This document shows positions 48,312 to 63,587 of a stretch of 64,000 bases of DNA, piece after piece; positions within the stretch are counted from its first letter, which is position 1; every line of letters begins with the position of its first letter. A program made the translations under genes and the position numbers. The stretch covers positions 1,736,001-1,800,000 of the forward strand of contig NZ_CP061304.1 in assembly GCF_018687735.1 (NCBI RefSeq), read 5' to 3'. The notes beneath the pieces were generated by a model that did no database searches, was not told the DNA's origin, and was given only the letters and a program-made list of their open reading frames with translations. Source of the stretch: Polynucleobacter sp. MG-5-Ahmo-C2 (GTDB lineage Bacteria > Pseudomonadota > Gammaproteobacteria > Burkholderiales > Burkholderiaceae).

Positions 48312-48428
48312 GAGGATTGAAAATCCTTGAGAAATGGAATCTAACCAAGCCGAGCCTCAAGAGAAAATGGCCTGTTTACTGGGCTATCTTGATTCTTGGT
48401 GACCTAGGTCCAGGAGGCTTAATCCTAT
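48312..48428 (-). repeat. Degenerate tRNA-tail boundary element, leftmost of the array
   Basis: Positions 48366-48428 align with the terminator and tRNA-tail unit at 54563-54620. A weak stem ATGGCC/GGGCTAT is followed by GATTCTTGGTGACC, matching GATTCTTGGTGGCC, then a decayed tail. On the plus strand at 48315-48328 there is also GGATTGAAAATCC, the tRNA-Phe anticodon arm. The rest of the 150 bp between the flanking genes shows nothing else. Confidence 0.45.
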
Positions 48429-48430
48429 CG

Positions 48431-49078
48431 CTAAGACTGCCGCTTTGAATGACAAAACAATACTAGCATCACCAATGCCGCCAGCACTTCAAAAAGCGCA
48501 AATCCGAAAACATCATTCGGGGCGATTCCAACAAATGTATTTGTCAAACTTCTTGCTAGGGCAACGGCAGGATTGGCAAAAAATGTTGAAGAAGTAAACC
48601 AATAGCCTGCTGTGACAGTTAGGGCTACAAGCATGGGTACTCTATCTTTAGCCTCTTTGTCACCAATACGAATTACCGCGAGTAATGCGAGGGTTGATAC
48701 AAATTCACTTACCCAAATACCTGGGCCTGCTCTGACCTTGGTAGATTCTTGAATTATGGACAGACTGTACATTAAATGGGTCAGCCATATTCCAGCAATA
48801 GCGCCACTGAACTGACAAACCCAGTAGCCCAACATTTTTTTCAAATCGAGATGGCCCAACTTCCAAAACATCAATGTAACGACTGGATTGAAATGCGCAC
48901 CAGAAATGGGTCCAAGCAAAGTAATTAGCACATATAAGCCTGCTCCGGTGGCAATGCTGTTTCCTAGAAGCGCGACTGCAGCATTACCAGCCCCCAATGT
49001 CTCGCCCATAATTCCCGAGCCGGTAACGATTGCTAGTAGCAGGGCTGTGCCAATAAATTCAGAGAGGTAAGATTTCAT
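48431..49078 (-). CDS. aqpS: Aquaporin-family channel (AqpS type) of the ars operon
   Basis: A 215-residue MIP-family channel with six hydrophobic segments and the two half-helix motifs HFNPVVTLMF and FANPAVALAR. Its ATG overlaps the arsC stop by four bases. In rhizobial ars operons an aquaglyceroporin called AqpS replaces the ArsB pump and lets arsenite, made by ArsC, leave the cell down its gradient. No arsB or acr3 is seen here, so the same role is likely. Confidence 0.86.
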   Translation of the reverse strand: MKSYLSEFIGTALLLAIVTGSGIMGETLGAGNAAVALLGNSIATGAGLYVLITLLGPISGAHFNPVVTLMFWKLGHLDLKKMLGYWVCQFSGAIAGIWLTHLMYSLSIIQESTKVRAGPGIWVSEFVSTLALLAVIRIGDKEAKDRVPMLVALTVTAGYWFTSSTFFANPAVALARSLTNTFVGIAPNDVFGFALFEVLAALVMLVLFCHSKRQS

Positions 49079-49554
49079 GCTTTTGTGTGAATCTCTTTTA
49101 GGCTCATTGAATCTAGTTTATCCAATGGCATTGCGGCAAGAATGTTAATTCGCTTTTCAAGTCCATTCATAACGCTTACGAAAGCGGCTTTCTTTTCTAA
49201 GTCTGTACCCTGAACTTGTGATTGATCTGGAAAGCCCCAGTGAGCAGTCACAGGCTGGCCCGGCCAATAAGGGCATTGCTCGCCAGCAGCTTGATCACAA
49301 ACAGTAATGATGAAATCCATCTTAGGAGCATCAGGCAGCCCATAGACATCCCAACTTTTGCTTTTGAGCTTGGCTGAGTCATAGCCCATTTCTTTTGCGA
49401 GGTCGGCTGCAATGGGATTAACAGAAGTGCCTGGACTAGAACCCGCTGAATAACCAACAAACTTGCCACTTGGGTGAGTAGAAGAAAGTGCCTCACCAAT
49501 AATTGAGCGGGCTGAGTTATGGGTGCATAAAAATAGAATGTTGTATTGTTTCAT
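49075..49554 (-). CDS. arsC: Arsenate reductase, thioredoxin-coupled low-molecular-weight phosphatase fold
   Basis: A 159-residue protein with the CX5R loop CTHNSARS (Cys10 to Arg16) at the N-terminus and further cysteines in ITVCDQAAGEQCPYWPG that can relay a disulfide. It reduces arsenate to arsenite. It is the second gene of arsR-arsC-aqpS, overlapping both partners by four bases. Confidence 0.9.
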   Translation of the reverse strand: MKQYNILFLCTHNSARSIIGEALSSTHPSGKFVGYSAGSSPGTSVNPIAADLAKEMGYDSAKLKSKSWDVYGLPDAPKMDFIITVCDQAAGEQCPYWPGQPVTAHWGFPDQSQVQGTDLEKKAAFVSVMNGLEKRINILAAMPLDKLDSMSLKEIHTKA

Positions 49555-49880
49555 TTGGCCTTGGCTTTCTGAAGAGGTTGAACGAGGCTACACGGTTTAC
49601 CACCACAGCAGTTATCTAATAAAAACTCACTTAACTTTAGTACCTGTTCTGCATTTGGGCGATAAATCAAATTACGGCTTTGACGCTCAACCAACAAGAG
49701 TTCGGCATCAAGCAAATCTTTTAGGTGAAAACTAAGCGTGGCATTAGGAATGCCTAGTTTTTCAATAATCTCGCTCGGAGTTAATCCCTTATCACCACGC
49801 TGAACAATGAGGCGAAATACATTAAGCCGGGTTTCTTGCCCTAGTGCGAGAAATGCTGAAATAACTTGAGTATTTTTCAT
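49551..49880 (-). CDS. arsR: ArsR/SmtB-family arsenic-responsive repressor
   Basis: A 109-residue winged-helix repressor. The helix-turn-helix is LTPSEIIEKLGIPNATLSFHL (given from about residue 33 on, in which GIPNATLSFHL is the recognition helix). The canonical ELCVC metal site is missing. A cysteine cluster, NCCGGKPC, is placed near residue 90-97 at the C-terminal side, close to the arrangement reported for some ArsR proteins with C-terminal arsenite sites. It heads the ars operon. Confidence 0.88.
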   Translation of the reverse strand: MKNTQVISAFLALGQETRLNVFRLIVQRGDKGLTPSEIIEKLGIPNATLSFHLKDLLDAELLLVERQSRNLIYRPNAEQVLKLSEFLLDNCCGGKPCSLVQPLQKAKAK

Positions 49881-49902
49881 ATTTCCAATTATATGGAAAT
49901 AT
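49879..49902. promoter_or_regulatory. ArsR operator candidate
   Basis: ATATTTCCA and TGGAAATAT flank a six-base AT-only spacer. The repeat overlaps the arsR start codon by two bases, so the bound repressor would block its own operon. Confidence 0.6.
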
Positions 49903-49926
49903 ATATTTCATGATTGTGACAACTAA

Positions 49927-49990
49927 TATCGTTTCAGACGATAGTAAGCAGCATCAGGATGTCTAGTGGATAAGTTCTTTTAAGGACAAA
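49927..49990. repeat. Palindromic repeat cluster E (diverged)
   Basis: TATCGT/ACGATA around TTCAG at 49927-49943, then CAGGATGTC, then TTCTTTTAAGGAC at 49976-49988 followed by AAATCATCATTC. The order and the flanking words match cluster A at 54427-54525, with more changes. Confidence 0.5.
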
Positions 49991-50026
49991 TCATCATTCG
50001 AACAAATAGGCGAGAGATACCGCCTC

Positions 50027-50542
50027 TTACTTGCGATAGCTATCAAATTTTTGACTCAGCGCCTCTACGGCCTTTGTTAAGGCGAACAGCTCTTTCTCTT
50101 TCATCATATCTATTTTTTGATGGAGCAATTCAATTTCCAGCTCTGCCTTTACATTAACCTCAAAATCATTATTAGCCTGTTGCCGATCAATTTCTGAGAG
50201 TCGATTTTGGCTCATCATAATTGCCGGTGCGGTATAGGCAGCCTGAAATGACAGCATTAGATTTAAAAGAATAAAGGGGTACGGATCCCAAGTATTGCTG
50301 TTGCTTATTGAGTTATAAACAATCCAAGTAGAGATACATACACTTTGGATAATGATGAACTTCCAAGATCCCACGGTCTTTGCTACCACATCTGATATTT
50401 TTTGCCCGATAGTTAATGATCCGATGGGCTGTTCTATGTGCGCAGAACTTTGAAGGGGAAGACCGGCGCGGTGCTTTCTTCTGTGGGCACGCAGAGCCTC
50501 TAAAACTTGTAGCTCTTGATTGGTGGGCGTAGCTATTGTCAT
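50027..50542 (-). CDS. DUF1003 family membrane protein
   Basis: 171 residues. The family core is visible: the GSWKFIIIQSVCISTWIVYN first helix, WDPYPFILLNLMLSFQAAYT second helix and MMSQNRLSEIDRQQANNDFEVN loop, given here as landmarks. Two membrane segments are followed by a coiled-coil tail (about 125-170). Function is unknown. It shares the first module of the array with the ars operon but is separated from it by palindrome cluster E. Confidence 0.85.
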   Translation of the reverse strand: MTIATPTNQELQVLEALRAHRRKHRAGLPLQSSAHIEQPIGSLTIGQKISDVVAKTVGSWKFIIIQSVCISTWIVYNSISNSNTWDPYPFILLNLMLSFQAAYTAPAIMMSQNRLSEIDRQQANNDFEVNVKAELEIELLHQKIDMMKEKELFALTKAVEALSQKFDSYRK

Positions 50543-50572
50543 GTGGCTCTCCTAATAAACTTCACTCTACAC

Positions 50573-50618
50573 CCTATAAACAATAAAACCACCCGTAGGT
50601 AGTTTTATTGTTTATAGG
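50573..50618 (-). terminator. 46-base near-perfect hairpin attached to a tRNA tail
   Basis: Arms 50573-50593 and 50598-50618 are each 21 bases with one G-U-type mismatch and a four-base CGTA loop. The arm ends inside the CCACC of the tRNA-tail repeat. It is far longer than the other terminators in the array. It would end transcripts coming from the glycosyltransferase gene. Confidence 0.7.
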
Positions 50619-50650
50619 TGGCCCGGGGAGAAGTTGACCTGGGTTCTAGC
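50617..50650 (-). repeat. tRNA 3' tail fragment, copy 2
   Basis: On the minus strand it ends CCCCGGGCCACC, preceded by a decayed T-arm (GGTCAACTTC in place of GGTTCGATTCC). It lies three bases beyond the stop of the glycosyltransferase gene. Confidence 0.6.
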
Positions 50651-50652
50651 CA

Positions 50653-51318
50653 TTATTCAAAGTCGTAACTTTTCTCTAACTCCGGTATCTGGAAAATTTC
50701 ATGAGAGTATTTCAAAAAATTTTCTCGGTGCCTTCTATAGAATAAAAGTCCCTCTTTGATACTAGCTACAGAGGCACCTTGTTCAAGCATCTTATCCCAA
50801 AGGTTCCAATCCTCTTGGGGGTGGGCACCATCTTCATATCTCTTTTTATAGCCGATTTTTTGACCCAAGGCTGTTCTATACATCATGGATCCGTGATGCT
50901 GTTCTTGACGATTCCAATATAAATCACCTTGATGGGGAAACGCTTGGATGGGTATCCGCATTAAGATGTCCTTCTTTAATTCTCCGGTAACAATAACGTC
51001 GTAAGTGACAATATCGGCACTGGCATTAGATAGCATTTCAATTGCGTCTGAGCGCAACCAATTATCAGCCCCTATAAATAAGACATACTCAGTATTTACT
51101 CTAGAAAGCATGTCTTGAAAGTTATCTACAACACCTAAATTTTCATCCCTCAGTACGTATTCAATATCAGGATATAAAGCTGGTAAATGATTGCAATCAA
51201 AGCCACCATCATCAACAAATAAAATTCTCGCAGGAGAAATCGTTTGGGAGAGCAGTGACTCGATGCAATGGGCGGCAAGGTGTCCATATCTATAAGAAGC
51301 AATAACGACAGTAATCAT
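50653..51318 (-). CDS. Family 2 glycosyltransferase
   Basis: About 221 residues with the GT-A start TVVIASYRYGHLAAHCIESLL, the FVDDGG acidic turn near residue 36 and a FIGADNWLR segment in place of the usual DxD line near residue 86. Cytoplasmic; it probably transfers a sugar in surface polysaccharide synthesis. ATG at 51318 begins the fold; the frame is open to 51351. No other glycan genes are close, which fits a transferred single-gene module. The gene ends at a tRNA tail. Confidence 0.8.
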   Translation of the reverse strand: MITVVIASYRYGHLAAHCIESLLSQTISPARILFVDDGGFDCNHLPALYPDIEYVLRDENLGVVDNFQDMLSRVNTEYVLFIGADNWLRSDAIEMLSNASADIVTYDVIVTGELKKDILMRIPIQAFPHQGDLYWNRQEQHHGSMMYRTALGQKIGYKKRYEDGAHPQEDWNLWDKMLEQGASVASIKEGLLFYRRHRENFLKYSHEIFQIPELEKSYDFE

Positions 51319-51503
51319 ATTGAGTGTCATTAGAGCATGAAACCATGACATTAATACTCATATAATTCGAACCGCCATTCCCCAGACCCCAAAGATGCTT
51401 TGAATATTTTTTGGCGTTGCAGAATCGATCAATTAAATACATGTAATGAGCAAGTAACAAAGAAATTGTAAATTCTTTGGTTTTCTTCCAACACTTAGGT
51501 TTC

Positions 51504-52007
51504 ATGCCACTAATTCGTAAAATTCTTTTGCTTCTTATTTTGATGGGGTCCTGCTTTGTTGCTCTGTCTTCTGAAGTAAAGTACGTAGTCCTACTTGAAA
51601 ATGGAGTCAAAGCAGGTCATCAAACCGTCAAACGTCATGGCAATAAAGTTGATGTTAATTTTGACTTTAAAGAAAATGGGCGAGGACCAACCCTAAAAGA
51701 GCACATAACGCTAGCCTCTGATGGGACCATGAAAAACTATCGCGTTTCGGGTATTTCTGAAATGGGTGGTGCAGTAAGAGAACAATTTACCATCAAACAT
51801 AGCCCCAAGAAATTAAATCAAGGCGGCTTTTATCTTCCCATGAATTCCTCTTGGGAGGTAAATTCGCTGATGATTACCGCCCTTAGTAAAAGTAAGAACA
51901 ATTACTTACCATTGCTCCCCTCGGGCGGAATCGACCACGGCTACAGGATGCCTACATCCGCACTTAGACTAATGCCTACTTTATTCGTAGTGAGTCCACA
52001 TTCTTAA
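51504..52007 (+). pseudogene. Truncated N-terminal part of an amidohydrolase-type exported protein
   Basis: A signal peptide (MPLIRKILLLLILMGSC) is followed by a domain with KYVVLLENGVKAGHQTV, FKENGRGPTLKEHITL and YLPLLPSGG. This resembles the N-terminal lead of large amidohydrolase-family proteins as I remember them, where LLPSGG is followed by the metal-dependent domain. Here the homology stops at about residue 140 and the frame runs into a tRNA-tail repeat (GGGCGGAATCGACC) and ends at 52007. It looks cut by the insertion or recombination that made the repeat. It is one of only two plus-strand genes in the array. Confidence 0.6.
51923..51955 (-). repeat. tRNA 3' tail fragment, copy 3
   Basis: Plus-strand GGGCGGAATCGACCACGG followed by CTACAGGATGCC matches the copies at 52595 and 63542 (GGGCGGAATCGACCAGGG and CTAGGATG). 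It forms the 3' part of the truncated gene. Confidence 0.6.
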
Positions 52008-52247
52008 GATTCGAACCGTCTTCTCCTTGCGGAAAATTTCATAAACTAAGCGATGCTGAATATTAATTCTGCGTGAGTAAGCCCCTTTTAGATCACCAAC
52101 TAACTTCTCATAAGGCGGTGGATTTTGTAGGGGATCTACTTCTAAAATATCCAATAAAGCCTGGGTTTTATCTTTAAGGCCAGCGGCAGATAGTTTTTTT
52201 GCATCCTTAATGGCATATTTGGAATAAGCTAAATTCCAAGTCACCAC
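51981..52247 (-). CDS. YoeB/RelE-type toxin
   Basis: An 88-residue ParE/RelE-fold mRNA interferase. The family pattern includes WNLAYSKYAIKDAKKL, the GDLKGAYSRRINIQHRLVYEI core with conserved Arg and His residues, and the C-terminal MWTHYE. It cleaves ribosome-bound mRNA unless bound by its antitoxin. It overlaps the antitoxin gene by seven bases. Its 3' end overlaps the truncated plus-strand gene by 27 bp. Confidence 0.88.
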   Translation of the reverse strand: MVTWNLAYSKYAIKDAKKLSAAGLKDKTQALLDILEVDPLQNPPPYEKLVGDLKGAYSRRINIQHRLVYEIFRKEKTVRILRMWTHYE

Positions 52248-52483
52248 TTCAATGCCCTTTTACTTTTAGCAATAGGCTCAGCCATAGCGTCTTTAATTGA
52301 TTCACGCATTCCTGGAATTGCCAATAGATACAGCGTCTCCTGAATAGCGCTCCAATCTTCTTCAGAAACTAAAACCGCATTTGCTCGCTTACCAGAAATA
52401 ACTACTGGCTTGTGTGACTCTGCTGTCTGATCAATCAACCGGTAGAGACCGGCGCGTGCTTCGCTTGCGGTTATTGTGGTCAT
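52241..52483 (-). CDS. YefM/Phd-type antitoxin
   Basis: About 80 residues starting TTITASEARAGLYRLIDQ, the typical Phd/YefM DNA-binding N-terminus, with KPVVISGKRANAVLVSEEDW next and an acidic/basic toxin-binding tail. ATG at 52483 follows AAAAGGAG and is preferred over 52531, which would lie inside the promoter. It represses its own promoter through GTAC-core palindromes. Confidence 0.88.
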   Translation of the reverse strand: MTTITASEARAGLYRLIDQTAESHKPVVISGKRANAVLVSEEDWSAIQETLYLLAIPGMRESIKDAMAEPIAKSKRALKW

Positions 52484-52502
52484 GATTTCACTCCTTTTGA
52501 AT

Positions 52503-52531
52503 ATAGTACGCAAAAGCGTACGCTTTGTCAA
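52503..52531 (-). promoter_or_regulatory. Promoter and operator of the yefM-yoeB-like pair
   Basis: On the minus strand TTGACA (52526-52531) and TACTAT (52503-52508) are 17 bases apart, close to the sigma-70 ideal. The spacer contains AGCGTACGCT, a perfect palindrome, and a second GCGTAC copy overlapping the -10 element. YefM-type antitoxins bind paired sites of this kind. Confidence 0.8.
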
Positions 52532-52562
52532 GTTGCCATCTCATGCGCCTGACCAAAAGAAA

Positions 52563-52585
52563 ATGCCCCGCATATAGCAGGGCAT
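52563..52585 (-). terminator. Intrinsic terminator after a tRNA tail, type 1
   Basis: ATGCCCCGC/GCAGGGCAT with an ATATA loop; on the minus strand the stem is followed by TTTTC. The same stem recurs at 61758-61780 with a different loop. Confidence 0.85.
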
Positions 52586-52594
52586 TATTAAGTT

Positions 52595-52634
52595 TGGTGG
52601 CCCGGGGCGGAATCGAACCAGGGCCTAGGATGCC
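52595..52634 (-). repeat. tRNA 3' tail fragment, copy 4
   Basis: The minus strand reads GGTTCGATTCCGCCCCGGG then CCACCA: a complete T-arm loop, acceptor strand and CCA. The sequence before it is CCTAGGCCCT in place of the tRNA-Phe variable region. It lies six bases beyond the stop of the sensor kinase gene. Confidence 0.8.
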
Positions 52635-52639
52635 TAACT

Positions 52640-54358
52640 CTAGCTATAGGCAGCAGATGGCAATTCAATGACAAACCGTGTACCACCGCCAACCAAATCC
52701 TCATGATGGATTGAGCCACTATATCTAGTAACAATATGCTTACAAAGCCATAAACCTAGACCCATACCAGTCTGCTTGGTTGTACTCAGGAGCTCAAAAA
52801 GCTGGGGTTTGAATTCAACGGGCACACCTGGCCCATTGTCAGAAACACTGAGACGGACGGACTGACCAACCTTAGTAGCCTCTAATGCTATACGATGCTG
52901 GAGCGTTCCTGACTTAGCCAAAGCCTGAATTGCGTTATTCAGTAGATTTAATATGACTTGCTCGATTTCAGATGGATTCACCATAATCACCAGATCATCA
53001 TCGACTCGAAGCTGAATTTGAATATTCTTGCTCTTAAGCTCTGGCTTGACAATCTCTAGAACGCTTGAAACCAAGTCGCCCAATTGAACTGCTTGAGTGT
53101 TGGATTCGCCATCTGTAAAGATTGATCTGAGGGATTTAACAATCGTCGCAGCCCTCGTATTATCTTGCTCAAGTGAATCCAAGATTTCTTTACCCAACTC
53201 AGGATTAAGAGCCCCATTTTCTAATTTCATTTTAAGAAACTGAATATTCAGATTCGATGCGCCAAGTGGTTGATTGAGTTCGTGCGCAATGGATGCCGAT
53301 AGGGCACCAGTCGCCGCGGTCTTATTGGCTTTTAGTAGTGAGCCAACCATAAAATCGCGTTCGTCTAATAACATTTGTATTTGTGCTTTTTCTTTTTTCA
53401 GCCTTTTATTCCAAGACCAAAAAAGAATGAGTCCCAGCAATAGCATCACCCCAAAGATGGATGCGTAAATTGCCACAATACGCCAATAACCATAATCAAA
53501 TCGTACTGAAAACCATTTTTCTTTTAGGCTTTGCTTTTCCTGCTCAGTTAATGTGTCGAGCACTTTGTTGGTTAAGGTGACTAACTCAGGCCAATCCTTT
53601 CTAACCATCATAGACTCACCCTGAATGGGAAAGTTTGTAGGGGCCGCTACTGTAAGATTCGAAAAACCATACTGAGCGATCATAAAAGTAGCATTGACTA
53701 AGTCCGCGACATAAGCATCGCCAACGCCCGATGAAATGGCTTGTAGCGCTTCATGTTGTGTCTTTTTTTCGATAAACTCAAAATCAGATACCTCTTTACG
53801 CACCAAGCCATTTACGACAAAGCCCTTAACGCCTACAATTTTTTTTCCAGACAGATCACCAAGCGAAATAATTCGCGCGCTATCGGTCCTAGTGATAATT
53901 ACCCATGGAGAGAAAAGGTACTGATTTGTATACAGCACATACTTCAGTCGTTCTGGTAAAAATCTGCCAGTCATGAACACATCTGGACCATTCGCTGTTC
54001 CTATAAAAGGGATTGCCTCAGAAAAAGAGCCAGAGAATTGATCTTTGAATTCGCAATTTAGCTTATATACCGCACATGTAATCTTGGCGTAATCTATTGC
54101 CAAGCCAACGGGCTGCTTTTTATCGTAAAAATATGGCGGGGCTTCAGCACTTACCCAAAATCTAATTTTATGATTGGCATCGATCCACTGTTTTTCAGAA
54201 TCCGATGGCTGAATTTTCCCAATCAAGCGATCTGAAATCGCTACAACATCTGGGCTAATAGCATCATCTTTTATCTGAGCCAACGCATTGGAAGTAAAGA
54301 TCCCAATAAAAAAGACAATATAAATATTGCTTAAATGGATTTTGGCAATATTTTTCAA
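52640..54358 (-). CDS. Sensor histidine kinase with periplasmic solute-binding domain
   Basis: A 572-residue membrane kinase. It has a signal peptide (about 1-27) and a bacterial solute-binding domain family 3 (about 65-290, with FWVSAEAPPYFYD and YVADLVNATF). One membrane helix (about 297-320) is followed by HisKA with His359 in IAHELNQPLG. The HATPase N box is NLLNNAIQA, G1 DNGPGVP and G2 GMGLGLWL. It should sense an amino acid-like or other small ligand. No response regulator is in the window. It fills one module alone. Confidence 0.9.
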   Translation of the reverse strand: MKNIAKIHLSNIYIVFFIGIFTSNALAQIKDDAISPDVVAISDRLIGKIQPSDSEKQWIDANHKIRFWVSAEAPPYFYDKKQPVGLAIDYAKITCAVYKLNCEFKDQFSGSFSEAIPFIGTANGPDVFMTGRFLPERLKYVLYTNQYLFSPWVIITRTDSARIISLGDLSGKKIVGVKGFVVNGLVRKEVSDFEFIEKKTQHEALQAISSGVGDAYVADLVNATFMIAQYGFSNLTVAAPTNFPIQGESMMVRKDWPELVTLTNKVLDTLTEQEKQSLKEKWFSVRFDYGYWRIVAIYASIFGVMLLLGLILFWSWNKRLKKEKAQIQMLLDERDFMVGSLLKANKTAATGALSASIAHELNQPLGASNLNIQFLKMKLENGALNPELGKEILDSLEQDNTRAATIVKSLRSIFTDGESNTQAVQLGDLVSSVLEIVKPELKSKNIQIQLRVDDDLVIMVNPSEIEQVILNLLNNAIQALAKSGTLQHRIALEATKVGQSVRLSVSDNGPGVPVEFKPQLFELLSTTKQTGMGLGLWLCKHIVTRYSGSIHHEDLVGGGTRFVIELPSAAYS

Positions 54359-54426
54359 AATGAATTTGTTGGCGCCTTTTTTTCTTAAATTCTATAGCAA
54401 TACTTTGGCAGAACATAGAGGTAATA

Positions 54427-54525
54427 AATGTCGTTTTAAACGACATTGAGAGTTAATGGACTCTTGACCGACACAGGGATGTTTAATTGACATGTCCTTT
54501 AAAAGGACAATTCATGATGAGGATA
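54427..54525. repeat. Palindromic repeat cluster A
   Basis: A 21-base palindrome at 54427-54447 (AATGTCGTTT, T, AAACGACATT), then CCGACACAGGGATGT at 54469-54483, then TGTCCTTTAAAAGGACA at 54493-54509, then ATTCATGATGAGGATATC. The same order of words occurs in cluster D. It lies 70-165 bp upstream of the sensor kinase start and could carry its promoter. Confidence 0.75.
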
Positions 54526-57345: not shown

Positions 57346-57459
57346 TTAATTACCTCTTATTGATAGATTACCTAAATTATTATGCTCTTTACTTTCATGG
57401 CTTGCTGAGCCTGACTTAATAGTCTTTTTCTCAACATGATGATTGAAATGAAAGTGCTA

Positions 57460-57544
57460 ATAGCCATATATGCGTATATACGCATATATAAGATGTCCTT
57501 TTAACGGACGCTCGAGTCTGCGTCGCTTAAATCGACACTTGAAG
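57460..57544. repeat. Direct repeat C, on the 5' side of cydA
   Basis: Begins ATAGCC and holds a perfect 24-bp palindrome at 57466-57489 (arm ATATATGCGTAT). Then come GTCCTTTTAACGGAC (57495-57509) and GTCGCTTAAATCGAC (57522-57536) with CACTTGA. The first 50 bases differ from repeat B at about five positions; the tail shares CGCTTAAATCGACACTTGA with cluster D. Confidence 0.85.
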
Positions 57545-57721
57545 TTAAAGCTCTTTATATTTCTTACCCAACTTCTCAGGATTGCCATTTCCATAAAGAC
57601 ACCACTGCTTAATTTCTTCGGTGAGCTGTTCAATATCCTTCATCTTCAGATTTCTAAAGTCTTCAAGCCCAATAGACCCAGTCTGTCTTAATTTCTCTAG
57701 AGCTTCTTTTAATGCCTTCAT
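57545..57721 (-). CDS. Small hypothetical protein (58 aa) between palindromes
   Basis: Begins MKALKEALEKLRQTGSIGLE and ends GKKYKEL. It is highly charged and probably helical, with one cysteine and no membrane segment. The ATG is not preceded by a strong ribosome-binding site. The frame fills the space between repeat C and the palindrome at 57746 almost exactly and reads toward cydA. The amino acid mix looks like a real protein. I do not recognise a family. Confidence 0.5.
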   Translation of the reverse strand: MKALKEALEKLRQTGSIGLEDFRNLKMKDIEQLTEEIKQWCLYGNGNPEKLGKKYKEL

Positions 57722-57745
57722 ATGAGTTTTAGATAATGCCGAATT

Positions 57746-57762
57746 TGTCGTTTAAAACGACA
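57746..57762. repeat. TGTCG-type palindrome
   Basis: TGTCGTTTAAAACGACA, identical to the cores at 54834 and 60641. It is 25 bases before the 58-aa frame and 50 bases past the stop of the YeeE-type gene. Confidence 0.85.
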
Positions 57763-57811
57763 TCGCGAGTTAAGGCGTAGCGAGAGCCAACTACAAAGCT
57801 CTCGCATACCT

Positions 57812-58342
57812 TCAAAGTCCTTTTTTCTCAAACCAGCGAAACATACCAAGAGTAATCAACGCGAATACTACGGCAACAACCCATTGATTAACGCCAAGAG
57901 TCTCGGGTAATCCAATCTTTCCTAAGTCGGCCCAAGCAAGCACCGTTGATTTAAAGAATGGATACATTTGGGCATAAATTCCTGCGCCTACAACCATACC
58001 AATCACGCCAAAGATTGCAGTCCAGCGACCTTCACCCACTGCGCCTACTGAGGTGCCAGGACAATAGCCCAAGACTGCCCAACCCACACCAAACAATGCG
58101 CCGCCCACCAAAATGCCACCGACATTCATTGCTTTAAGGCTCAATGTAATAAGCCCCATCTCATGCAAAGCTAAAACACCAAACATACCCACAACAATGG
58201 CTGAGAGCATGAACTTAAATATTGTCATGTCTTTTAATAGCAATGCGGCAACTTGCTTGTCATAGCGTAGAACACGCCCTTTTTGTAATAAGAAACCAAA
58301 GATAACGCCAGTTGCTAATCCTAATAGTTGATCTATAGACAT
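57812..58342 (-). CDS. YeeE/YedE-family transporter half, C-terminal type (DUF6691)
   Basis: 176 residues with about four hydrophobic segments and the sulfur-transport motif GWAVLGYCPGTSVGAVGEG, in which the cysteine is conserved for thiosulfate relay. It probably imports thiosulfate or a related sulfur species together with the other half encoded two bases upstream. Confidence 0.85.
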   Translation of the reverse strand: MSIDQLLGLATGVIFGFLLQKGRVLRYDKQVAALLLKDMTIFKFMLSAIVVGMFGVLALHEMGLITLSLKAMNVGGILVGGALFGVGWAVLGYCPGTSVGAVGEGRWTAIFGVIGMVVGAGIYAQMYPFFKSTVLAWADLGKIGLPETLGVNQWVVAVVFALITLGMFRWFEKKGL

Positions 58343-58344
58343 GA

Positions 58345-58899
58345 TTAGCTTGCCTTTCTGTACATGAAGCTTGCGACGATGACGCCAAAACCAAAGAACA
58401 TGGCTAATGCGACAAAAGAACTTACTGATAACTGCATCATGCCGCTCAGTCCATGTCCACTAGGACAGCCATCGGCTAAGCGAGCGCCAATCATTGCCAC
58501 GATGCCGCCAACAAAAGCAAATACAGCACGCTTTGGAACTGAAGAGCCAAAACGTTTTTCCCATAATGGTGGCAGGCTTTCTAACTTAAAACTGCCATCC
58601 ATTTTTGAGGAAAGCAATGCGCCAAAAAAGATGCCAATCACCATGAGAAATTGCCAATCAATAACAACTTTTTCTTTTGCGTAATAAACATTTTGTGCAA
58701 CATAGCTAGGGTCTACCACTTGAACTGCTAGACCTGCCGCGCGAACAAAAGTAGTTGATGCTCCTAAGTAGGTGGACTTGCCCATATAAACGGTAGTCAG
58801 ATAGACAGAAACGATAGCCAGCACTCCAACTAAGGCACCTGCCAAATAGGGACTCCAACCTTTAGAGCTAGATGCTCTGGTTTGTTCTGGATTGATCAT
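58345..58899 (-). CDS. YeeE/YedE-family transporter half, N-terminal type
   Basis: 184 residues with about four to five hydrophobic segments. The conserved cysteine motif is ARLADGCPSGHGLSGMMQL (near residues 140-158), and DWQFLMVIGIFFGALL precedes it. It complements the adjacent half to make a full YeeE-like channel, which in other bacteria is one chain. It is part of a three-gene unit with the DUF2892 gene, behind an FNR-type site. Confidence 0.87.
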   Translation of the reverse strand: MINPEQTRASSSKGWSPYLAGALVGVLAIVSVYLTTVYMGKSTYLGASTTFVRAAGLAVQVVDPSYVAQNVYYAKEKVVIDWQFLMVIGIFFGALLSSKMDGSFKLESLPPLWEKRFGSSVPKRAVFAFVGGIVAMIGARLADGCPSGHGLSGMMQLSVSSFVALAMFFGFGVIVASFMYRKAS

Positions 58900-58944
58900 C
58901 TTGGATCCTTATCAGTGATTTGCTTGTTAGCTGTTGGCAAAAGA

Positions 58945-59157
58945 TTACTTAGAACAACTGCCATTGCTACAGCCAGCGCCGCAAGAATTGATTCCCAAGA
59001 TTGGATACATTGGGCAGAACTTAAATAAGCCAGTTGCCAAAGGAATAATGCCAATCCAGCCCCATACGCCAACCACATTGCTTGCGGCTAAACCAACTAA
59101 GACCAGTCCAACAGAGATGCGTAGTACGCGATCGATACGGCCAACATTACATTTCAT
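58945..59157 (-). CDS. DUF2892 (YgaP-like transmembrane) protein
   Basis: 70 residues with two membrane helices and the family start MKCNVGRIDRVLRISVGLVL. It carries the FKFCPMYPILGINSC segment and a cysteine-rich tail (GAGCSNGSCSK). It is often linked to rhodanese and sulfur-handling genes. GGGGGTTAT precedes the ATG. It leads the unit with the two YeeE halves. Confidence 0.85.
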   Translation of the reverse strand: MKCNVGRIDRVLRISVGLVLVGLAASNVVGVWGWIGIIPLATGLFKFCPMYPILGINSCGAGCSNGSCSK

Positions 59158-59218
59158 ATAACCCCCATTAATTATTATTTTTGCTTTGTTAAGACTATGC
59201 TCATAAGCACCAAGCCAT

Positions 59219-59232
59219 TTGATCTATATCAA
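59219..59232. promoter_or_regulatory. FNR/ANR-type binding site upstream of the DUF2892-yeeE unit
   Basis: TTGATCTATATCAA matches the full TTGAT-N4-ATCAA consensus. It is centred about 68 bp before the DUF2892 start. A CATAGT/TAGTCT -10-like sequence sits about 30 bp downstream, the spacing of class II activation. Oxygen-responsive control of the sulfur genes is therefore likely. Confidence 0.75.
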
Positions 59233-59258
59233 TAACTTGTCTGCATTGAGCGGTGTTA

Positions 59259-59273
59259 CCACCCGAAGGTGGC
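59259..59273. terminator. Small hairpin after the Met-rich protein gene
   Basis: CCACC/GGTGG with a CGAA tetraloop, 22 bp past the stop of the Met-rich gene. No T-run follows, so it may be a weak or Rho-assisted terminator. Confidence 0.35.
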
Positions 59274-59294
59274 TTCTACCCACGCTCAACTGAT

Positions 59295-59654
59295 TTATCC
59301 GCAGTTTCTGCCCGACATCATTTGCGGGCCATGTCCTGCTGGCAAAGTAATGCCTTTTTCTTTGGCGCGCTTTTCCATCTCTGTATGTGTAGCTGTCATG
59401 ATTGCTTGCCGCTCTTCTACTGTCTTGGCATCAATCATCTTGTCCATCATGGCCAGTCTTTCGGCAGGAGTCATCAACTCACGCATAATTTTCATGTTGG
59501 CGTTTTGCCCCATCATCTGACCTTGCATCATTTGGCCACGCATCATGCCTGGGCCCATGCCATTACCCATTGGACCTGGCTGAGCATAGGCTACAGCCAA
59601 TCCAAGACCCATGACAGTGGCAACGCTAATTGCAATTTTGTTTACAGTTTTCAT
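59295..59654 (-). CDS. Exported methionine-rich protein
   Basis: About 119 residues: a signal peptide (cleavage after AYA near residue 24) and a Met/Gly/Gln-rich stretch (MGPGMMRGQMMQGQMMG, about 30-48) suited to Cu(I) binding. A helical region with MTPAERLAMMDKMIDAKT, like Spy/CpxP-type periplasmic proteins, follows. The ATG at 59654 has AGGAAA before it and is preferred over 59672. It is co-transcribed with the copper chaperone 22 bp upstream. Confidence 0.8.
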   Translation of the reverse strand: MKTVNKIAISVATVMGLGLAVAYAQPGPMGNGMGPGMMRGQMMQGQMMGQNANMKIMRELMTPAERLAMMDKMIDAKTVEERQAIMTATHTEMEKRAKEKGITLPAGHGPQMMSGRNCG

Positions 59655-59676
59655 TTTGAATTTCCTATTCATTTAG

Positions 59677-59955
59677 TTAGTTACAGCAACAACTTGTGCC
59701 ACTCTTACAAGAACCACTCTTAGCCTTTGCTTGAGGCGATGCATCAGAACTGATCTTTGCGGGATAACCATCCTCTTCTAATGCCGCAATAATCTCTTTT
59801 ACCTGTTGCGAGATATTGCCTTCAACCTTGACTGCGCCAGAGGCAAGATCTACCTCAACCTTTTGCACCCCAGCAATTGAATTAATGGCTTTTTCAACAT
59901 GCTTTACGCAAGCACCACAAGTCATTCCACTTACCGTTAAATTGATTGTTTCCAT
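59677..59955 (-). CDS. CopZ-like heavy-metal-associated copper chaperone
   Basis: 92 residues: one HMA domain with the metal site SGMTCGACVKH (Cys13 and Cys16) and the ferredoxin-like fold up to about residue 68. A linker follows, then an extra cysteine-rich tail (SGSCKSGTSCCCN) not found in ordinary CopZ. AAAGGAGG precedes the ATG. It probably binds Cu(I) and passes it on; the tail may raise capacity or sense metal. No copper ATPase is in the window. Confidence 0.88.
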   Translation of the reverse strand: METINLTVSGMTCGACVKHVEKAINSIAGVQKVEVDLASGAVKVEGNISQQVKEIIAALEEDGYPAKISSDASPQAKAKSGSCKSGTSCCCN

Positions 59956-60006
59956 ACCAACCTCCTTTGTATGAATTGATTATTCGCTCAATCATCCAAA
60001 GAGCGT

Positions 60007-60020
60007 ATGATTTAAATCAT
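60007..60020. promoter_or_regulatory. Crp/Fnr-type palindrome touching the crp-like start codon
   Basis: ATGATTTAAATCAT, a perfect palindrome with TGAT-N4-ATCA, lies immediately before the ATG at 60021. It suggests autoregulation of the Crp/Fnr gene, and perhaps control of the divergent copZ-like gene. Confidence 0.55.
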
Positions 60021-60626
60021 ATGGACATCTATATTCCTGAACTGCTAAAGGAGCTCCTGCCCAAAGGACTATTGGGGCAATGTCATGCCCATCACTTTGA
60101 AAAAGGTGATTACCTTTTCCATCAGGGCAAAAAACCTGAATACATGTTCTTTATTGTTTCGGGCGAAGCTGTTCTTACGAGAATCAGTAGCCATGGAGAG
60201 CCCACTACATTACAAAGATGTAAGGGTGGCTTTGTCAGTGAAGCCAGTTTGTTAGTAGATGCTTATCACTGTGATGCTATTGCGACTCACAATGGACAAG
60301 CGATCACGCTACCCATTAAATCTTTAAGAGAAGCACTCGCCGATAGCAAGTTCTCAATGAAATGGGTGCAGTTGCTTAGCAAAGAGATCATGCGCCTTCG
60401 AACACAATCTGAACGATTGGGACTTAAAGACATTCGCAGTAAATTAATTCATCTGATTGAGACCGAAGGCAAACAAGGCGTATTGACACTTCAGTCTGAT
60501 TTCAAATCCATGGCTTCAGAGATCGGCGTTACGCATGAGGCGTTATATAGGGCTATCGCCACATTAGAAAAAGAAGGTCTACTAGAAAAACATCCTGATT
60601 CCTTGGAATTGCTAAAGAAAAAATAA
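60021..60626 (+). CDS. Crp/Fnr-family transcriptional regulator
   Basis: About 201 residues: a cyclic-nucleotide-fold sensor domain (about 15-115, with FEKGDYLFHQGKKPEYMFFI), the long dimer helix, and a winged helix with MASEIGVTHEALYRAIATLE (about 165-184). The N-terminus has no FNR-like CxxCxxC iron-sulfur cluster, so the signal is different (redox, haem, NO or a nucleotide). The frame opens at TTG 59946, but ATG 60021 starts the family domain. No ribosome-binding site is visible, so the message may be leaderless. Confidence 0.87.
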   Translation: MDIYIPELLKELLPKGLLGQCHAHHFEKGDYLFHQGKKPEYMFFIVSGEAVLTRISSHGEPTTLQRCKGGFVSEASLLVDAYHCDAIATHNGQAITLPIKSLREALADSKFSMKWVQLLSKEIMRLRTQSERLGLKDIRSKLIHLIETEGKQGVLTLQSDFKSMASEIGVTHEALYRAIATLEKEGLLEKHPDSLELLKKK

Positions 60627-60639
60627 TACTCAAGAGGTA

Positions 60640-60775
60640 ATGTCGTTTAAAACGACATCTCAAGCACCGACCCTAGATGAGTGTCGCTTAAATCGACACT
60701 TGACCACTACAGGGATGTCAAATCCCCCGTTCATTAAGCGTCCTTTAAAAGGACGATTCAATATGGAGATATCTG
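60640..60775. repeat. Palindromic repeat cluster D (most complete)
   Basis: ATGTCGTTT/AAACGACAT at 60640-60658, AGTGTCG/CGACACT around CTTAAAT at 60680-60700, ACAGGGATGTCAAATCC at 60709-60725, and CGTCCTTT/AAAGGACG around A at 60739-60755. ATTCAATATGGAGATATC follows. It sits between the crp-like stop and a tRNA tail. The 275 bp here hold no gene. Confidence 0.85.
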
Positions 60776-60845
60776 GGAGAAATGGTGACTGACCGCGGCT
60801 GACACTAGAGATTCTATGGGCCAACTCTAATGCTTCAAGAATTCT

Positions 60846-60882
60846 TGGTGGCCCAGGGCGGAATCGACCAGGGCCTAAGGAG
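60846..60882 (-). repeat. tRNA 3' tail fragment, copy 6
   Basis: Minus strand TAGGCCCTGGTCGATTCC, GCCCTGGGCCACCAAGAATTC. One T of the T-loop is missing and one acceptor base differs. It closely matches copy 8 at 63542. Confidence 0.75.
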
Positions 60883-60901
60883 TTCTCATCCTATCTGAAA
60901 A

Positions 60902-61684
60902 CTACATCTGCCTTGCTTTCATTAGTTTAATTGTGTCAACAATCGCATCAGGCTGAATTGCCGTCTCCCCTAGGAATGGCTGATCAAAAATGAATACGAT
61001 GGCCAAGAGCGAGGCGAGCACCACCATCTGAACGCCCAAAGAAAATGACTCTTCACGGGAGGGCTTATAAGCTGAAGAAAGCAATGTCTTGGCCACAAAA
61101 AGAATGGCGATTGCCAGCCAATAAATATATGGGATTTGAATATGGGCAATCTCAATTCTTGAATCTCGTGACTCTGCTATAGATTCGGTTAATTTGACTA
61201 TTTCACCGTAAAGCATTTCTTCACGACCATTTGATGGCTTAATGCCCACAGCCGCTCGTGCTACAGGCAAAAATAGTTTTTGGGTTTTATCGCTTCCGTG
61301 CCCCTCATAAAGAGTGGGCCACTCATCTTTCACAATTGATTCGGTGTAAGCAAGTAGGTCTGATCTTATGACATCAAACTTATGGTCGCCATAGCGAGTC
61401 AATAACCGATCCAGATTGTTAATTTGGGTTGCCTCAAGCGAAACAATCGCGTCAGATTTTTGAAAATTGGTTAAGGCTTGAACCATTGAAAACGCGATGA
61501 TTGCCGCTAAGGCCGACACCATGGTGCTGTGGATACTGATTGATAGTTCTCGTTCCTCGCCCGGTATCAACTTATTTAAAATAGGCCTTAGAATGGCATG
61601 AAGTGAATACATCGCAATTAAGCAGGCTATTGAGAACAGCAGAATAATTAGCCAATCAGGCCATGAATTAAGTATCTTGATCAT
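60902..61684 (-). CDS. DUF4239 (bestrophin-like) membrane protein
   Basis: About 260 residues with two N-terminal membrane segments (about 10-30 and 48-68) and two C-terminal ones (about 195-215 and 220-240). The pattern SIHSTMVSALAAIIAFSMVQA and the LDRLLTRYGD helix follow DUF4239. Function is unknown. ATG at 61684 is preferred; the frame runs on to 61780 through a terminator hairpin, so the longer start cannot be right. It is a one-gene module. Confidence 0.8.
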   Translation of the reverse strand: MIKILNSWPDWLIILLFSIACLIAMYSLHAILRPILNKLIPGEERELSISIHSTMVSALAAIIAFSMVQALTNFQKSDAIVSLEATQINNLDRLLTRYGDHKFDVIRSDLLAYTESIVKDEWPTLYEGHGSDKTQKLFLPVARAAVGIKPSNGREEMLYGEIVKLTESIAESRDSRIEIAHIQIPYIYWLAIAILFVAKTLLSSAYKPSREESFSLGVQMVVLASLLAIVFIFDQPFLGETAIQPDAIVDTIKLMKARQM

Positions 61685-61757
61685 TATTGGGATCCTATTT
61701 TTTGTTTTTACTAAACCCTGCCAATTTAAACATTTTTCTGCGTCAGAGCAAATGAAA

Positions 61758-61780
61758 ATGCCCCGCACGAAGCAGGGCAT
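61758..61780 (-). terminator. Intrinsic terminator after a tRNA tail, type 1
   Basis: ATGCCCCGC/GCAGGGCAT with a five-base loop, followed by TTTTC on the minus strand. The same stem as at 52563-52585, at nearly the same distance from its tRNA tail. Confidence 0.85.
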
Positions 61781-61791
61781 TATTTAAATCT

Positions 61792-61823
61792 TGGTGGCCC
61801 GGGGCGGAATCGAACTCGCGATC
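61792..61823 (-). repeat. tRNA 3' tail fragment, copy 7
   Basis: Minus strand AGTTCGATTCCGCCCCGGG then CCACCA. T-loop and acceptor are intact; the upstream variable region differs (GATCGCG). It lies seven bases beyond the stop of the TAXI gene. Confidence 0.8.
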
Positions 61824-61829
61824 GACGGA

Positions 61830-63227
61830 TTAATATCTGGAATTAGATGCAATTTTACTTCTTACTAATTCAATCGCACTAAGGAGATTGAAGTATGAAT
61901 TTTCCATGCCAATGGGTACTCTTTCAGAGATAACCTGTTTATTTAATTTCTCTAGCCGCTGAAGAAGGTATTCAGCATCAGATTTAACTAATTGAGAAGC
62001 GGTGATCTTTCTCTCTATTGAGAGTAATTCCTCAAGATATGGACTTTGCCTGATTTCATAATTAATAGAACGCAACTTCATATTTAATTTTGCCAATGGA
62101 TACAGTAGCGCAAATGCGGTGAGCAAGAAAATCCATAATCTATTTGTAAATCCTGCTAAGAAAAAAGGAAGGTGACTAAATATTTGCGGCACACCTTGGT
62201 TATAAAATTTTCTAGCAACTGGGCTTATGGGTATAGAGGGGTCCATATATTTCGGAAATTCCCCTCTAGATGCAAAAAACAAACTTTTAAAATCTTGTAA
62301 ACAATCACGTACAGTTACAAGGAGTAAAGTTTGAACGTCTTCATTCAAATCCTTCTTAACAGCAAGCGTTGTAGTAGTAGCAATTAAAGAAATATCTTTA
62401 TCAGGTATTGATTTAGCAATATCAACAGAATGGGCTGGTAAGACAAGTTTTTCAAGGTATGGAACTGACATTTGATAAGCTTTTGCATCTGGTATACCCA
62501 TTAGTGCAATTTTTGGGTTTCTGAGTAGAAACTGAACTTTCCTATCATGATAGGGCATCACTTCAATTGTGCAATCTAATTTCGATTTGAGGAGATCTTC
62601 AAAGTCAGCCTCGTAAGAGCTGACTCTAAAATTATTTCGACTGGCAATCTCAATTCCATTCGCCTCAAAAAGGCGCTTTACTAAGGGGAGAGTGCCTCCC
62701 CCTGCTGGTCCTAAGCCTACGTTTAAATTAAGTCTTGCTAAATCTTTGAATTCTTGCGGCATTTTTACTAAATCTTTTCTACAGAAAATCCATACTGGCT
62801 CATAGGCAATGCTTCCGAGTGAGTAGAAATTTTGTGATTGCTCATTGCTTATGGCCCCACCTTGAATAAGAGCAACATTGACATCACTATTCGGATTCTC
62901 GAGCAGATTAGCATTTTCTATAGTGCCAGCTGTAGCAATTAAATCCACTTTTAAGCCATTTTCCTCAAGCGAATCTCTGAAGGCCTCCGCCAACCTGGTG
63001 TAAGCATACTCTGTGCTTTTATTTGTCGTTAAAGTGACTGAGCGTGGCGGGAATGGTTTAAGAAGCAATATGATAGCCAGCAAAATGGCTATGACTATGA
63101 TGAGGAATATTTTTCTCTCAATAAATAGTTCTTTGAGTGCTAGAAATTCATCGCGCAGAACTAACTTAATGTAGTTGAATCCTTGATTTTTCAAAGGTAT
63201 GACCTTTAATCGGAAATTGAGGGGCAA
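61830..63227 (-). CDS. TAXI-family (TRAP-associated) solute-binding protein, membrane-anchored
   Basis: 465 residues. A membrane anchor (about 38-57) is followed by a TAXI-type binding domain (about 65-330, with STEYAYTRLAEAFRD, NVALIQGGAIS and VGLGPAGGGTLPLVKRLFE). A second membrane helix (about 360-385) and a C-terminal coiled coil complete it. Normal TAXI receptors are free in the periplasm and pair with TRAP permease subunits; none are here. An anchored receptor with a cytoplasmic tail suggests sensing or a structural role. A one-gene module. Confidence 0.82.
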   Translation of the reverse strand: MPLNFRLKVIPLKNQGFNYIKLVLRDEFLALKELFIERKIFLIIVIAILLAIILLLKPFPPRSVTLTTNKSTEYAYTRLAEAFRDSLEENGLKVDLIATAGTIENANLLENPNSDVNVALIQGGAISNEQSQNFYSLGSIAYEPVWIFCRKDLVKMPQEFKDLARLNLNVGLGPAGGGTLPLVKRLFEANGIEIASRNNFRVSSYEADFEDLLKSKLDCTIEVMPYHDRKVQFLLRNPKIALMGIPDAKAYQMSVPYLEKLVLPAHSVDIAKSIPDKDISLIATTTTLAVKKDLNEDVQTLLLVTVRDCLQDFKSLFFASRGEFPKYMDPSIPISPVARKFYNQGVPQIFSHLPFFLAGFTNRLWIFLLTAFALLYPLAKLNMKLRSINYEIRQSPYLEELLSIERKITASQLVKSDAEYLLQRLEKLNKQVISERVPIGMENSYFNLLSAIELVRSKIASNSRY

Positions 63228-63408
63228 TCTTTCGGTATTGAGAATTATATGGCAATGAATGAAGGGTTTTTAGAATTCAATTTTTCTAAGTAATAGCCGT
63301 AAGCAACCCCTCAGACCACAATCTACTGGTATCGCCATTGAGAATGTGTAGTAATTGCCTAGATACTTTCCAGCATGCCCAGCATTACTTAAAGTAACGC
63401 CTAAAAGA

Positions 63409-63440
63409 CAAAACCCCCACCATTGCTGGTGAGGGTTTTG
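63409..63440. terminator. Hairpin with AAAACCC stem
   Basis: 13-base arms 63409-63421 and 63428-63440 (CAAAACCC.CACC against GGTGAGGGTTTTG) with a single mismatch. On the minus strand TTTTGTCTTTTAG follows. It probably ends transcripts from the phasin-like gene. The 400 bp from 63228 to 63625 otherwise contain a small CCGGT/ACCGG repeat at 63521-63534, a tRNA tail at 63542 and no convincing gene. Confidence 0.7.
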
Positions 63441-63541
63441 TACGACTCGACACATAGTTAACACTTTATGCCGTGGAATGAAAGTACGAAGATTGCTTAC
63501 TGCAGGTGTAAACCATGTGTCCGGTACGGACCGGTGTTTCT

Positions 63542-63587
63542 TGGTGGCCCAGGGCGGAATCGACCAGGGCCTAGGATGTCAAATCCT
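63542..63587 (-). repeat. tRNA 3' tail fragment, copy 8
   Basis: Minus strand GGATTTGACATCC (an anticodon-arm-like stem-loop), TAGGCCCTGGTCGATTCC and GCCCTGGGCCACCA. Like copy 6 it lacks one T in the T-loop. GGATGTCAAATCC also occurs in cluster D at 60713-60725. Confidence 0.78.

Follow-up and report, generated by a model that had tools for sequence, protein, structure and literature searches.

The locus considered here raises the question of how a run of short gene modules, most of them read in one direction and each closed by a remnant of the same tRNA 3' end, came to lie beside the tRNA-Phe gene of a Polynucleobacter chromosome. The window, namely the whole 64,000-nucleotide (nt) stretch that was analyzed, corresponds to G000:C1:1736001-1800000 of a 1.82-Mb single-contig genome; it was placed in the context of 121 Polynucleobacter genomes, with one genome per species, so that the comparisons are between species. 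The region is most likely a stack of mobile units added serially at tRNA-Phe by a site-specific tyrosine integrase, which on the small units, here called cassettes, would probably act in trans.

As for the fragments themselves, the original prediction listed eight minus-strand tRNA-Phe 3' ends and expected an intact gene on the same strand to the right of the window; the gene is present there, with anticodon GAA, 1.6 kb beyond the edge (L008:2565-2640, or 65565-65640 in window numbering). Every one of the eight was recovered on the minus strand when 291 junctions of other genomes, the genome of the window being left out, were used as a profile (E from 2.7e-21 to 1.4e-3), and the matches are better than chance, as the weakest scored 14.3 bits versus 5.1 bits for the best of five shuffles. 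The number had to be raised to at least nine, a remnant at 47212-47265 having been missed; a doubtful site at 45472-45519 (E 0.16) means that the stack could extend further left, and no clear core was found between 43.3 and 47.2 kb of the window. A simpler scan with the 21-nt core, CGATTCCGCCCCGGGCCACCA, at a threshold of 15/21 gave the matches listed in Table 1 and a single extra one at 15/21 (position 25435); site 48397, more worn, fell below this threshold. In the whole genome, a 25-mer with up to three mismatches matched seven times, six of them in the stack, including the intact tRNA, and once in another tRNA gene (1268359-1268440, RF00005), while the reversed pattern used as control had no match. 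The 11-mer of the original prediction, with up to two mismatches, occurred 15 times versus 12.5 expected, and alone it could not have revealed the array. Finally, nearly all genes were said to be co-oriented, and indeed between 48.4 and 63.6 kb the open reading frames (ORFs) judged to be genes are on the minus strand, except 51477-52007 and 59946-60626.

The arrangement recurs in other species of the genus. The tRNA-Phe 3' end is matched at least once in 114 of the 121 genomes, at least twice in 93 and at least five times in 42, with a maximum of 13, counts in which some matches probably belong to other tRNAs. For the detailed survey, 60 stretches of up to 20 kb, chosen for holding cores, were taken from the genomes among the matches listed; after joining adjacent ones and adding the window, 53 stretches (1.02 Mb) were scanned at a core threshold of 17/21. 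They hold 292 cores on one strand and none on the other, and wherever tRNA-Phe is present the core strand is that of the tRNA; the median of the 239 core-to-core intervals is 1230 bp, with 158 shorter than 2 kb and a maximum of 17 kb, and up to 13 units occur in a single stretch. In 259 genomes from 24 other genera of the family, none had more than four matches to the Polynucleobacter-type 3' end, a search that differing tRNA 3' ends could escape. Arrays of tRNA-Phe-type cores were also seen outside the main tRNA-Phe locus (L098, L099, L111, L117, L093, L124 and L186).

That the cores delimit units is shown by DNA shared between species. Among 478 alignments between different genomes, of at least 250 nt and at least 80% identity, 36.0% of the query ends fall at cores versus 3.7% with rotated cores (200 rotations, largest value 7.3%), and both ends do so in 11.5% versus 0.17%. 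Within arrays, 72 of the 478 run core to core in both genomes; 71 of these 72 comprise exactly one unit and 59 have a different rank in the two arrays. The comparison of whole modules with clean edges at the fragments, suggested in the original prediction for sister strains, is thus supported between sister species, where single units are present, absent or differently ranked. The single-unit segments form 21 families, each found in up to seven genomes. The position of the island is conserved and its length is variable: genes flanking it were matched on both sides in L139, L142, L089 and L091, and the distance from tRNA-Phe to the TauE gene is 1.1 kb in L139 (genome G105) versus 22.3 kb in the window genome. 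No remnant at 17/21 was found in G105, whose recombinase matches are limited to the XerC and XerD types. Repeated insertion at one tRNA-Phe gene, as originally proposed, is supported by the direction of the cores, the shared units, the classes of unit described below and this compact locus.

Crossover positions in tRNA genes have been studied before; here, 47 shared segments of at least 88% identity locate the exchange approximately. On the tRNA side of a unit, the core end and the tail move with the unit and the arm upstream of the core does not: over the 47 pairs the mismatch is 0.30-0.79 from position -30 to -4, and near 0 from -3 on (0.53 at -2). At the far-side core of the same segments the arm is more alike and the tail is different. 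Each remnant is thus composed of the arm of the incoming unit and the core end and tail of the resident one, and the strands would be exchanged at about the T-loop TTCGATT. The stack is also polar, for the wear of the cores rises with distance from the tRNA (28 arrays, 185 cores; rho 0.40, 0/2000 within-array permutations); with the farthest core removed, rho is 0.21 (7/2000 permutations).

Regarding the units, 244 were collected from 46 genomes, two extra loci included, and they fall into two classes according to the 24 nt before the core. In 38 units at least 21 of these match the tRNA (all 24 in 35 units), and these are called true-arm units; in the other 206, the cassettes, far fewer match, mostly 4-10, and eight units have intermediate arms with 15-20 matches. 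The cassette arm has a consensus of its own, about AG(G/A)(G/A)T(T/C)AG(A/G)CATCCT(C/A)GGCCCTGG(T)T in 199 distinct arm-core sequences, which is reminiscent of the tRNA anticodon arm with an altered loop; a folded, attC-like hairpin in this arm was considered and rejected, since the mutual information of the 199 sequences does not favor the proposed stem. The classes differ in size, with a median length of 4815 bp for true-arm units versus 1042 bp for cassettes, and in coding content. Relatives of the two recombinases of the array islands, of 424 and 188 amino acids (aa), occur in 12 of the 38 true-arm units (two of them partial or interrupted) and in 1 of the 206 cassettes. This search covered these two enzymes, other integrase types and transfer genes not having been sought in every unit; within it 205 of the 206 cassettes have no such relative, and most units have no recognized integrase, in line with the short, mostly integrase-free modules originally described. 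The longest cassette ORF lies on the tRNA strand in 159/202 cases and covers a median of 66% of the cassette, and 111 of the 206 have exactly one ORF of at least 70 aa. The 197 longest cassette proteins of at least 80 aa form 109 clusters, 69 of them singletons; the largest has nine proteins, and a member of it matches the BrnT toxin family, among the matches listed (25 of 164 families).

Most units carry a terminator in the tail after the core. Within 80 nt downstream of the core, 181 of the 244 units have an intrinsic terminator, versus 6 of 956 control windows; by class, the counts are 160/206 cassettes and 21/38 true-arm units. The scan demands perfect stems, so that imperfect ones are missed. 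In the window, the suggestion of terminators at a fixed distance holds for part of the sites: the strict scan was positive at 54599 and 47212, and imperfect terminator-like stems were recognized by eye at 52595, 61792 and 50616. As a general rule, reading of the tRNA promoter into the stack is not supported, in view of these counts, which also speak against a promoter shared through the cassettes, as far as sequence can tell. A terminator directly follows the intact tRNA-Phe in 31 of 42 stretches that begin at the tRNA; the window genome is among the 11 where it does not, and here read-through from the tRNA is possible.

As for the enzymes, the 424-aa protein encoded by array islands belongs to a PHROG integrase family (E 2.2e-31), and the catalytic domain of the 188-aa recombinase spans residues 6-176. 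PF00589 used alone as an integrase screen misses the 424-aa integrase in G026, and this integrase was then searched as a protein; relatives occur in 64/121 genomes (E 1e-30), and those of the 188-aa recombinase in 63/121 (E 1e-50). At least five cores are present in 29 of the 64 genomes with any relative of the 424-aa integrase versus 13 of the 57 without. Relatives of this integrase, 42-48% identical, were also observed on the 5' side of tRNA-Phe in L182, L189, L185, L193 and L100, with additional copies of the tRNA 5' half farther out in L185, L189 and L193, as if tRNA-Phe were also used from the other end. The tyrosine recombinase that had been expected just right of the window was not borne out, as no island integrase was found beside tRNA-Phe. 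The one encoded in the window (20747-21748) was rejected as the island integrase; it is XerC-like (320 bits, cut-off 335), and since an XerC-type match occurs in 26/26 genomes, about 19-75 kb from tRNA-Phe where both are on one contig, it is taken as a core gene. A 339-aa tyrosine recombinase of the window genome (324530; L150:1027-2046) was also rejected, being present in 23/121 genomes, often at a similar chromosomal position where matched, with no link to arrays seen. No IntI-type integrase was recognized with TIGR02249 (cut-off 265): the 188-aa, XerC-type and XerD-type proteins scored 46.3, 81.3 and 129.7 bits, and the 339-aa protein was not among the matches listed.

Regarding possible vehicles, a tRNA-type 27-mer was found in two viral contigs; no confirmed relative of the 424-aa integrase was found in viral contigs and none in phage records, and one 2-kb stretch of the window had no megablast match in plasmids. 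Phage or plasmid transport of the cassettes was accordingly set aside, as these searches gave it no support. One of the two contigs, L202:1-13065, is of filamentous-phage type, with Zot-domain, secretin, G2P-like replication and Phage_integrase matches; it has an integrase gene of its own, and its 51-nt terminal repeat equals the 3' half of tRNA-Phe, after which comes a terminator-like hairpin, although it could be a contig broken at the repeat, and no relative of the 424-aa or 188-aa recombinase was found in it at E 1e-5. Another kind of element seems, from this repeat, to use the same tRNA-Phe site. The second contig, which has the tRNA-Phe 3' pattern at L203:8267-8293, holds a seemingly whole tRNA-Phe, again followed by a terminator-like hairpin.

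In the mechanism proposed, a tyrosine integrase would exchange strands at about the T-loop TTCGATT of tRNA-Phe; the incoming unit would bring a tRNA 3' end and, usually, a fresh terminator, and the displaced copy, preceded by the unit's own arm upstream of the T-loop, would be left at the far side as the remnant that closes the unit. The larger islands, with the true tRNA half, in some cases encode the 424-aa integrase and the 188-aa recombinase, the latter with little beyond a catalytic domain; the small cassettes, with their own conserved arm and nearly all devoid of relatives of those enzymes, would probably be recombined in trans by the island integrases and would travel between cells. The sequences themselves show the site and its direction, the edges of the units, the approximate crossover, the two classes, the carried terminators, the sharing between species and the polarity of decay, whereas the enzyme that acts on cassettes, its action in trans and the way in which cassettes pass from cell to cell are inferred. 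A more specific form of this scheme, which is a serious but still tentative possibility, is a cassette-capture platform unrelated to IntI, in which tRNA-Phe is the entry site and cassettes of ~1 kb bear a joining site of their own, where a T-loop core is preceded by a diverged half-tRNA arm and followed by a terminator; this site would be recombined in trans by integrases of the islands that use the undiverged half. If so, each insertion would renew the tRNA end and usually its terminator, and the stack could grow without harming tRNA-Phe.

Several observations weigh against serial insertion by an island integrase. No candidate for this enzyme was found in the window genome (424-aa at E 1e-30, 188-aa at E 1e-50), and at E 1e-30 a relative of the 424-aa integrase is missing from 13 of the 42 genomes with at least five cores. 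The closest integrase clade does go with core-rich genomes (9/10 with at least five cores versus 33/111 others), a point in favor, but these counts ignore kinship and the integrase element itself contributes one core; the link weakens to 9/12 versus 33/109 once the fragments in G076 and G114 are counted. The core is nearly invariant, so that the switch can be located no more closely than about -3 to +5, a span that includes TTCGATT. Moreover, 362 near-full unit matches have both ends at cores in 189 cases, one in 121 and none in 52; the newest unit of the window matches L115 at 99.6% only over 63609-65439 (1831 bp), and the ends differ. Finally, no free cassette was seen, and the exact cassette-type 24-mer had no match in viral contigs.

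These points have to be set beside the alternatives. The cassettes could be decayed, deletion-trimmed remains of islands that once bore an integrase, comparable to cis-mobilizable elements (CIMEs) and not a class of their own; in favor of this, neither recombinase has a relative in 26 of the 38 true-arm units, a small number of arms are intermediate, the wear of the cores increases away from the tRNA, and the available part of PMC5704250 describes elements that decay to CIMEs and then accrete. Such trimming is nonetheless unlikely to have given 206 units a common arm consensus unlike that of the islands, to have kept the same cassette at near-equal length in up to seven genomes, or to have left a longest ORF that fills a median of 66% of the cassette, with a single ORF of at least 70 aa in 111/206. 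Homologous recombination after transformation, shuffling units between the repeated sites with no integrase, is a less probable explanation still: certain shared units do differ at their ends, and the excerpt available of PMC5644125 gives P. asymbioticus a recombination to mutation ratio (r/m) of 7.4, with frequent recombination, but the common core is merely about 21 bp, the breakpoints lie at about the T-loop, the cores are unidirectional, the stack is polar, and islands at the same site encode integrase relatives.

That the cassettes are inserted by the host XerC/XerD or by the 339-aa recombinase is very improbable. These are the sole PF00589 matches of the window genome, yet no remnant at 17/21 occurs in G105, where the XerC- and XerD-type proteins are the only matches, and in the search of 121 genomes the 339-aa protein was found in 23 and was absent from several core-rich ones, such as G007 and G012. 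Least credible of all is that the repeats are regulatory tRNA-like 3' ends, that is terminator or processing elements, and not insertion scars: terminators do follow many of them, but the terminator tail moves with the unit after the core and the arm before it does not, shared segments stop at cores, and the locus of G105, where remnants are absent at 17/21, is compact. Serial insertion at tRNA-Phe by a tyrosine integrase is the explanation retained here.

The features of the window stack are collected in Table 1; on the right, beyond tRNA-Phe, lie genes for a YcaO protein, a response regulator and a histidine kinase, and the gene on this side of the tRNA has its closest matches in Polynucleobacter.

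Table 1. Remnants, cores, units and palindromes of the tRNA-Phe stack (window numbering; fractions are matches to the 21-nt core, E values are those of the junction profile)
Coordinates	Strand	Feature	Evidence
47212..47265	-	decayed remnant and terminator, leftmost clear site	profile E 5.3e-7; perfect stem, T-run
48356..48427	-	decayed remnant	profile E 0.0014
48428..50615	-	unit(s): aquaporin (MIP), low-molecular-weight phosphatase family protein, ArsR-type regulator, DUF1003 protein	
50575..50643	-	remnant, right core half and terminator-like stem	profile E 2e-10; 16/21 at 50616 (right half preserved)
50644..51922	mixed	unit: family 2 glycosyltransferase (50653-51351, -) and short plus-strand ORF 51477-52007	
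51923..51956	-	remnant: cassette-type arm, left core part; right part unmatched	profile E 1.6e-4; 16/21 at 51913 (left half preserved)
51934..52594	-	cassette: YoeB/ParE-like toxin and Phd/YefM antitoxin	
52595..52615	-	core, cassette-type arm	21/21; profile E 2.8e-17
52616..54598	-	cassette: sensor histidine kinase (SBP_bac_3, HisKA, HATPase_c)	
54430..54508		15-bp palindromes GTCNYTTWAANSGAC in the tail beyond core 54599	
54599..54619	-	core, true tRNA arm, terminator	21/21; profile E 2.7e-21
54620..60845	mixed	larger unit: cytochrome bd genes, two sulphur transport genes, HMA protein, Crp-type regulator	
54835, 54920, 57495, 57522, 57747, 60642, 60683, 60740		same palindrome family	
60846..60866	-	core, cassette-type arm	20/21; profile E 1e-14
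60867..61791	-	cassette: Bestrophin-like protein	
61792..61812	-	core, terminator-like stem	21/21; profile E 3.3e-12
61813..63541	-	cassette: NMT1-like protein	
63542..63562	-	core, cassette-type arm	20/21; profile E 1.4e-16
63563..64000	-	start of the unit adjoining intact tRNA-Phe: PHB-depolymerase-type gene and short companion gene	

Regarding the relatives of these units, the one with cytochrome bd genes (54599-60846) has a counterpart in another species (L131) that is 98.7% identical from core to core, and genes related to the sensor histidine kinase are the main genes of units in four other arrays. The toxin-antitoxin unit is matched at 89-92% identity by DNA of L126, L146, L147 and L094, where the match starts at 51922/51923, and of L104, where it starts at 51964; DNA relatives of the glycosyltransferase part occur in L134, L089, L131 and L099. 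The Bestrophin-like and NMT1-like cassettes have no DNA relative longer than 200 nt among the compared loci. The leftmost unit is perhaps two old units fused, because four other arrays have a unit whose main gene encodes a DUF1003 protein. The plus-strand ORF 51477-52007 spans site 51923, where a cassette-type arm meets unrelated DNA; this junction is possibly a secondary-site event or a deletion, and a DNA search of the compared loci found no second copy of 51400-51922. As for the 15-bp palindromes, 142 of the 287 found in the genus stretches lie 50-250 nt after cores and three in flanks upstream of first cores, and they may be arm-type sites of an integrase. The same palindromes were seen between two tRNA genes near 901.5 kb of the window genome (L151:3543-3617), which suggests another small tRNA island there.

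If correct, serial insertion at tRNA-Phe would provide a common freshwater genus with a system of gene cassettes in which units, sites and direction are legible from sequence, and beside integrons there would be a second route for collecting single genes, such as toxin-antitoxin pairs, transporters and enzymes, at one place. It makes testable whether integrase-free tRNA cassettes are a class of their own, with a site unlike that of the islands that potentially move them, and why insertions leave an essential tRNA undisturbed.

Among known systems, the phage-transduced tmRNA islands of Pseudomonas, according to the excerpt available of PMC12595487, lie beside a tRNA or tmRNA gene, have direct repeats and a tyrosine integrase, and lack transfer genes, a set of features that recalls the stack; each of them is described there with its own integrase, whereas most Polynucleobacter units have no recognized one. 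CIMEs are described as units that lack an integrase, are kept between two sites and stand in tandem with elements that bear one (PMC5704250, in part), a likeness that would extend to most cassettes as far as the two queried recombinases go; the Polynucleobacter stacks differ in having up to 13 units per stretch, a median of about 1 kb for the small class and a separate class of arm. Tyrosine recombinases devoid of an arm-binding domain have been surveyed (PMC8138268, in part).

The likeness to integrons noted in the original prediction stands for the layout and fails for the site and the enzyme. Integrons and integrase-less cassette clusters have one-directional small units, often of a single gene, toxin-antitoxin pairs included, at times far from an integrase (partly from the excerpt of PMC4119200). 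The Polynucleobacter stack differs by its core made of a tRNA 3' end, the lack of any IntI-type protein found, the lack of support for a folded attC and the terminators between units. Some of the cassette features just named are general background on integrons, as is the attC box, GTTRRRY, in a site that folds as a single strand; this box is absent, by eye, from the consensus site, and mutual information picks out no arm helix.

As for tycheposons, the original paper reportedly presents them as tRNA-bordered cargo elements with a tyrosine recombinase, and Prochlorococcus islands are said to contain repeated tRNA ends. The former description agrees with the part of PMC10872708 at hand. In that part tycheposons measure 4-200 kb and include a recombinase, whereas most Polynucleobacter units are about 1 kb long and have no recognized one; an own recombinase of this kind, judged by relatives of the two queried enzymes, is found in 12/38 true-arm units versus 1/206 cassettes.

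The closest parallel is with the additive flexible genomic islands of Alteromonas, Actinomarinales and Methylophilaceae, which, in the published excerpts, have a fixed position by a tRNA gene, cassettes gained and lost, and repeats of the tRNA end. The opinion that a dense array of integrase-free modules was not described is too strong, given that tRNA-anchored cassettes and repeated tRNA 3' ends have already been published for additive islands (PMC10872708, PMC4119200 and PMC7771536, each in part), which are further treated in the excerpt of PMC5217437; in Methylopumilus, the last 20 nt of tRNA-Lys are repeated in varying number according to the same portions of the first three. Among the matches listed, no title concerns Polynucleobacter tRNA-Phe arrays, although a paper on Polynucleobacter islands (PMC5244307) may describe the locus, and the excerpts listed give no account of these arrays or of a cassette site distinct from the island site. 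The Polynucleobacter stacks agree with additive islands in their constant position with variable length, their tRNA target with 3' repeats and the unit-wise gain and loss between species; relative to the published excerpts, they are set apart by the cassettes' own arm, the counted terminators, the crossover at about the T-loop and the units traced between species.

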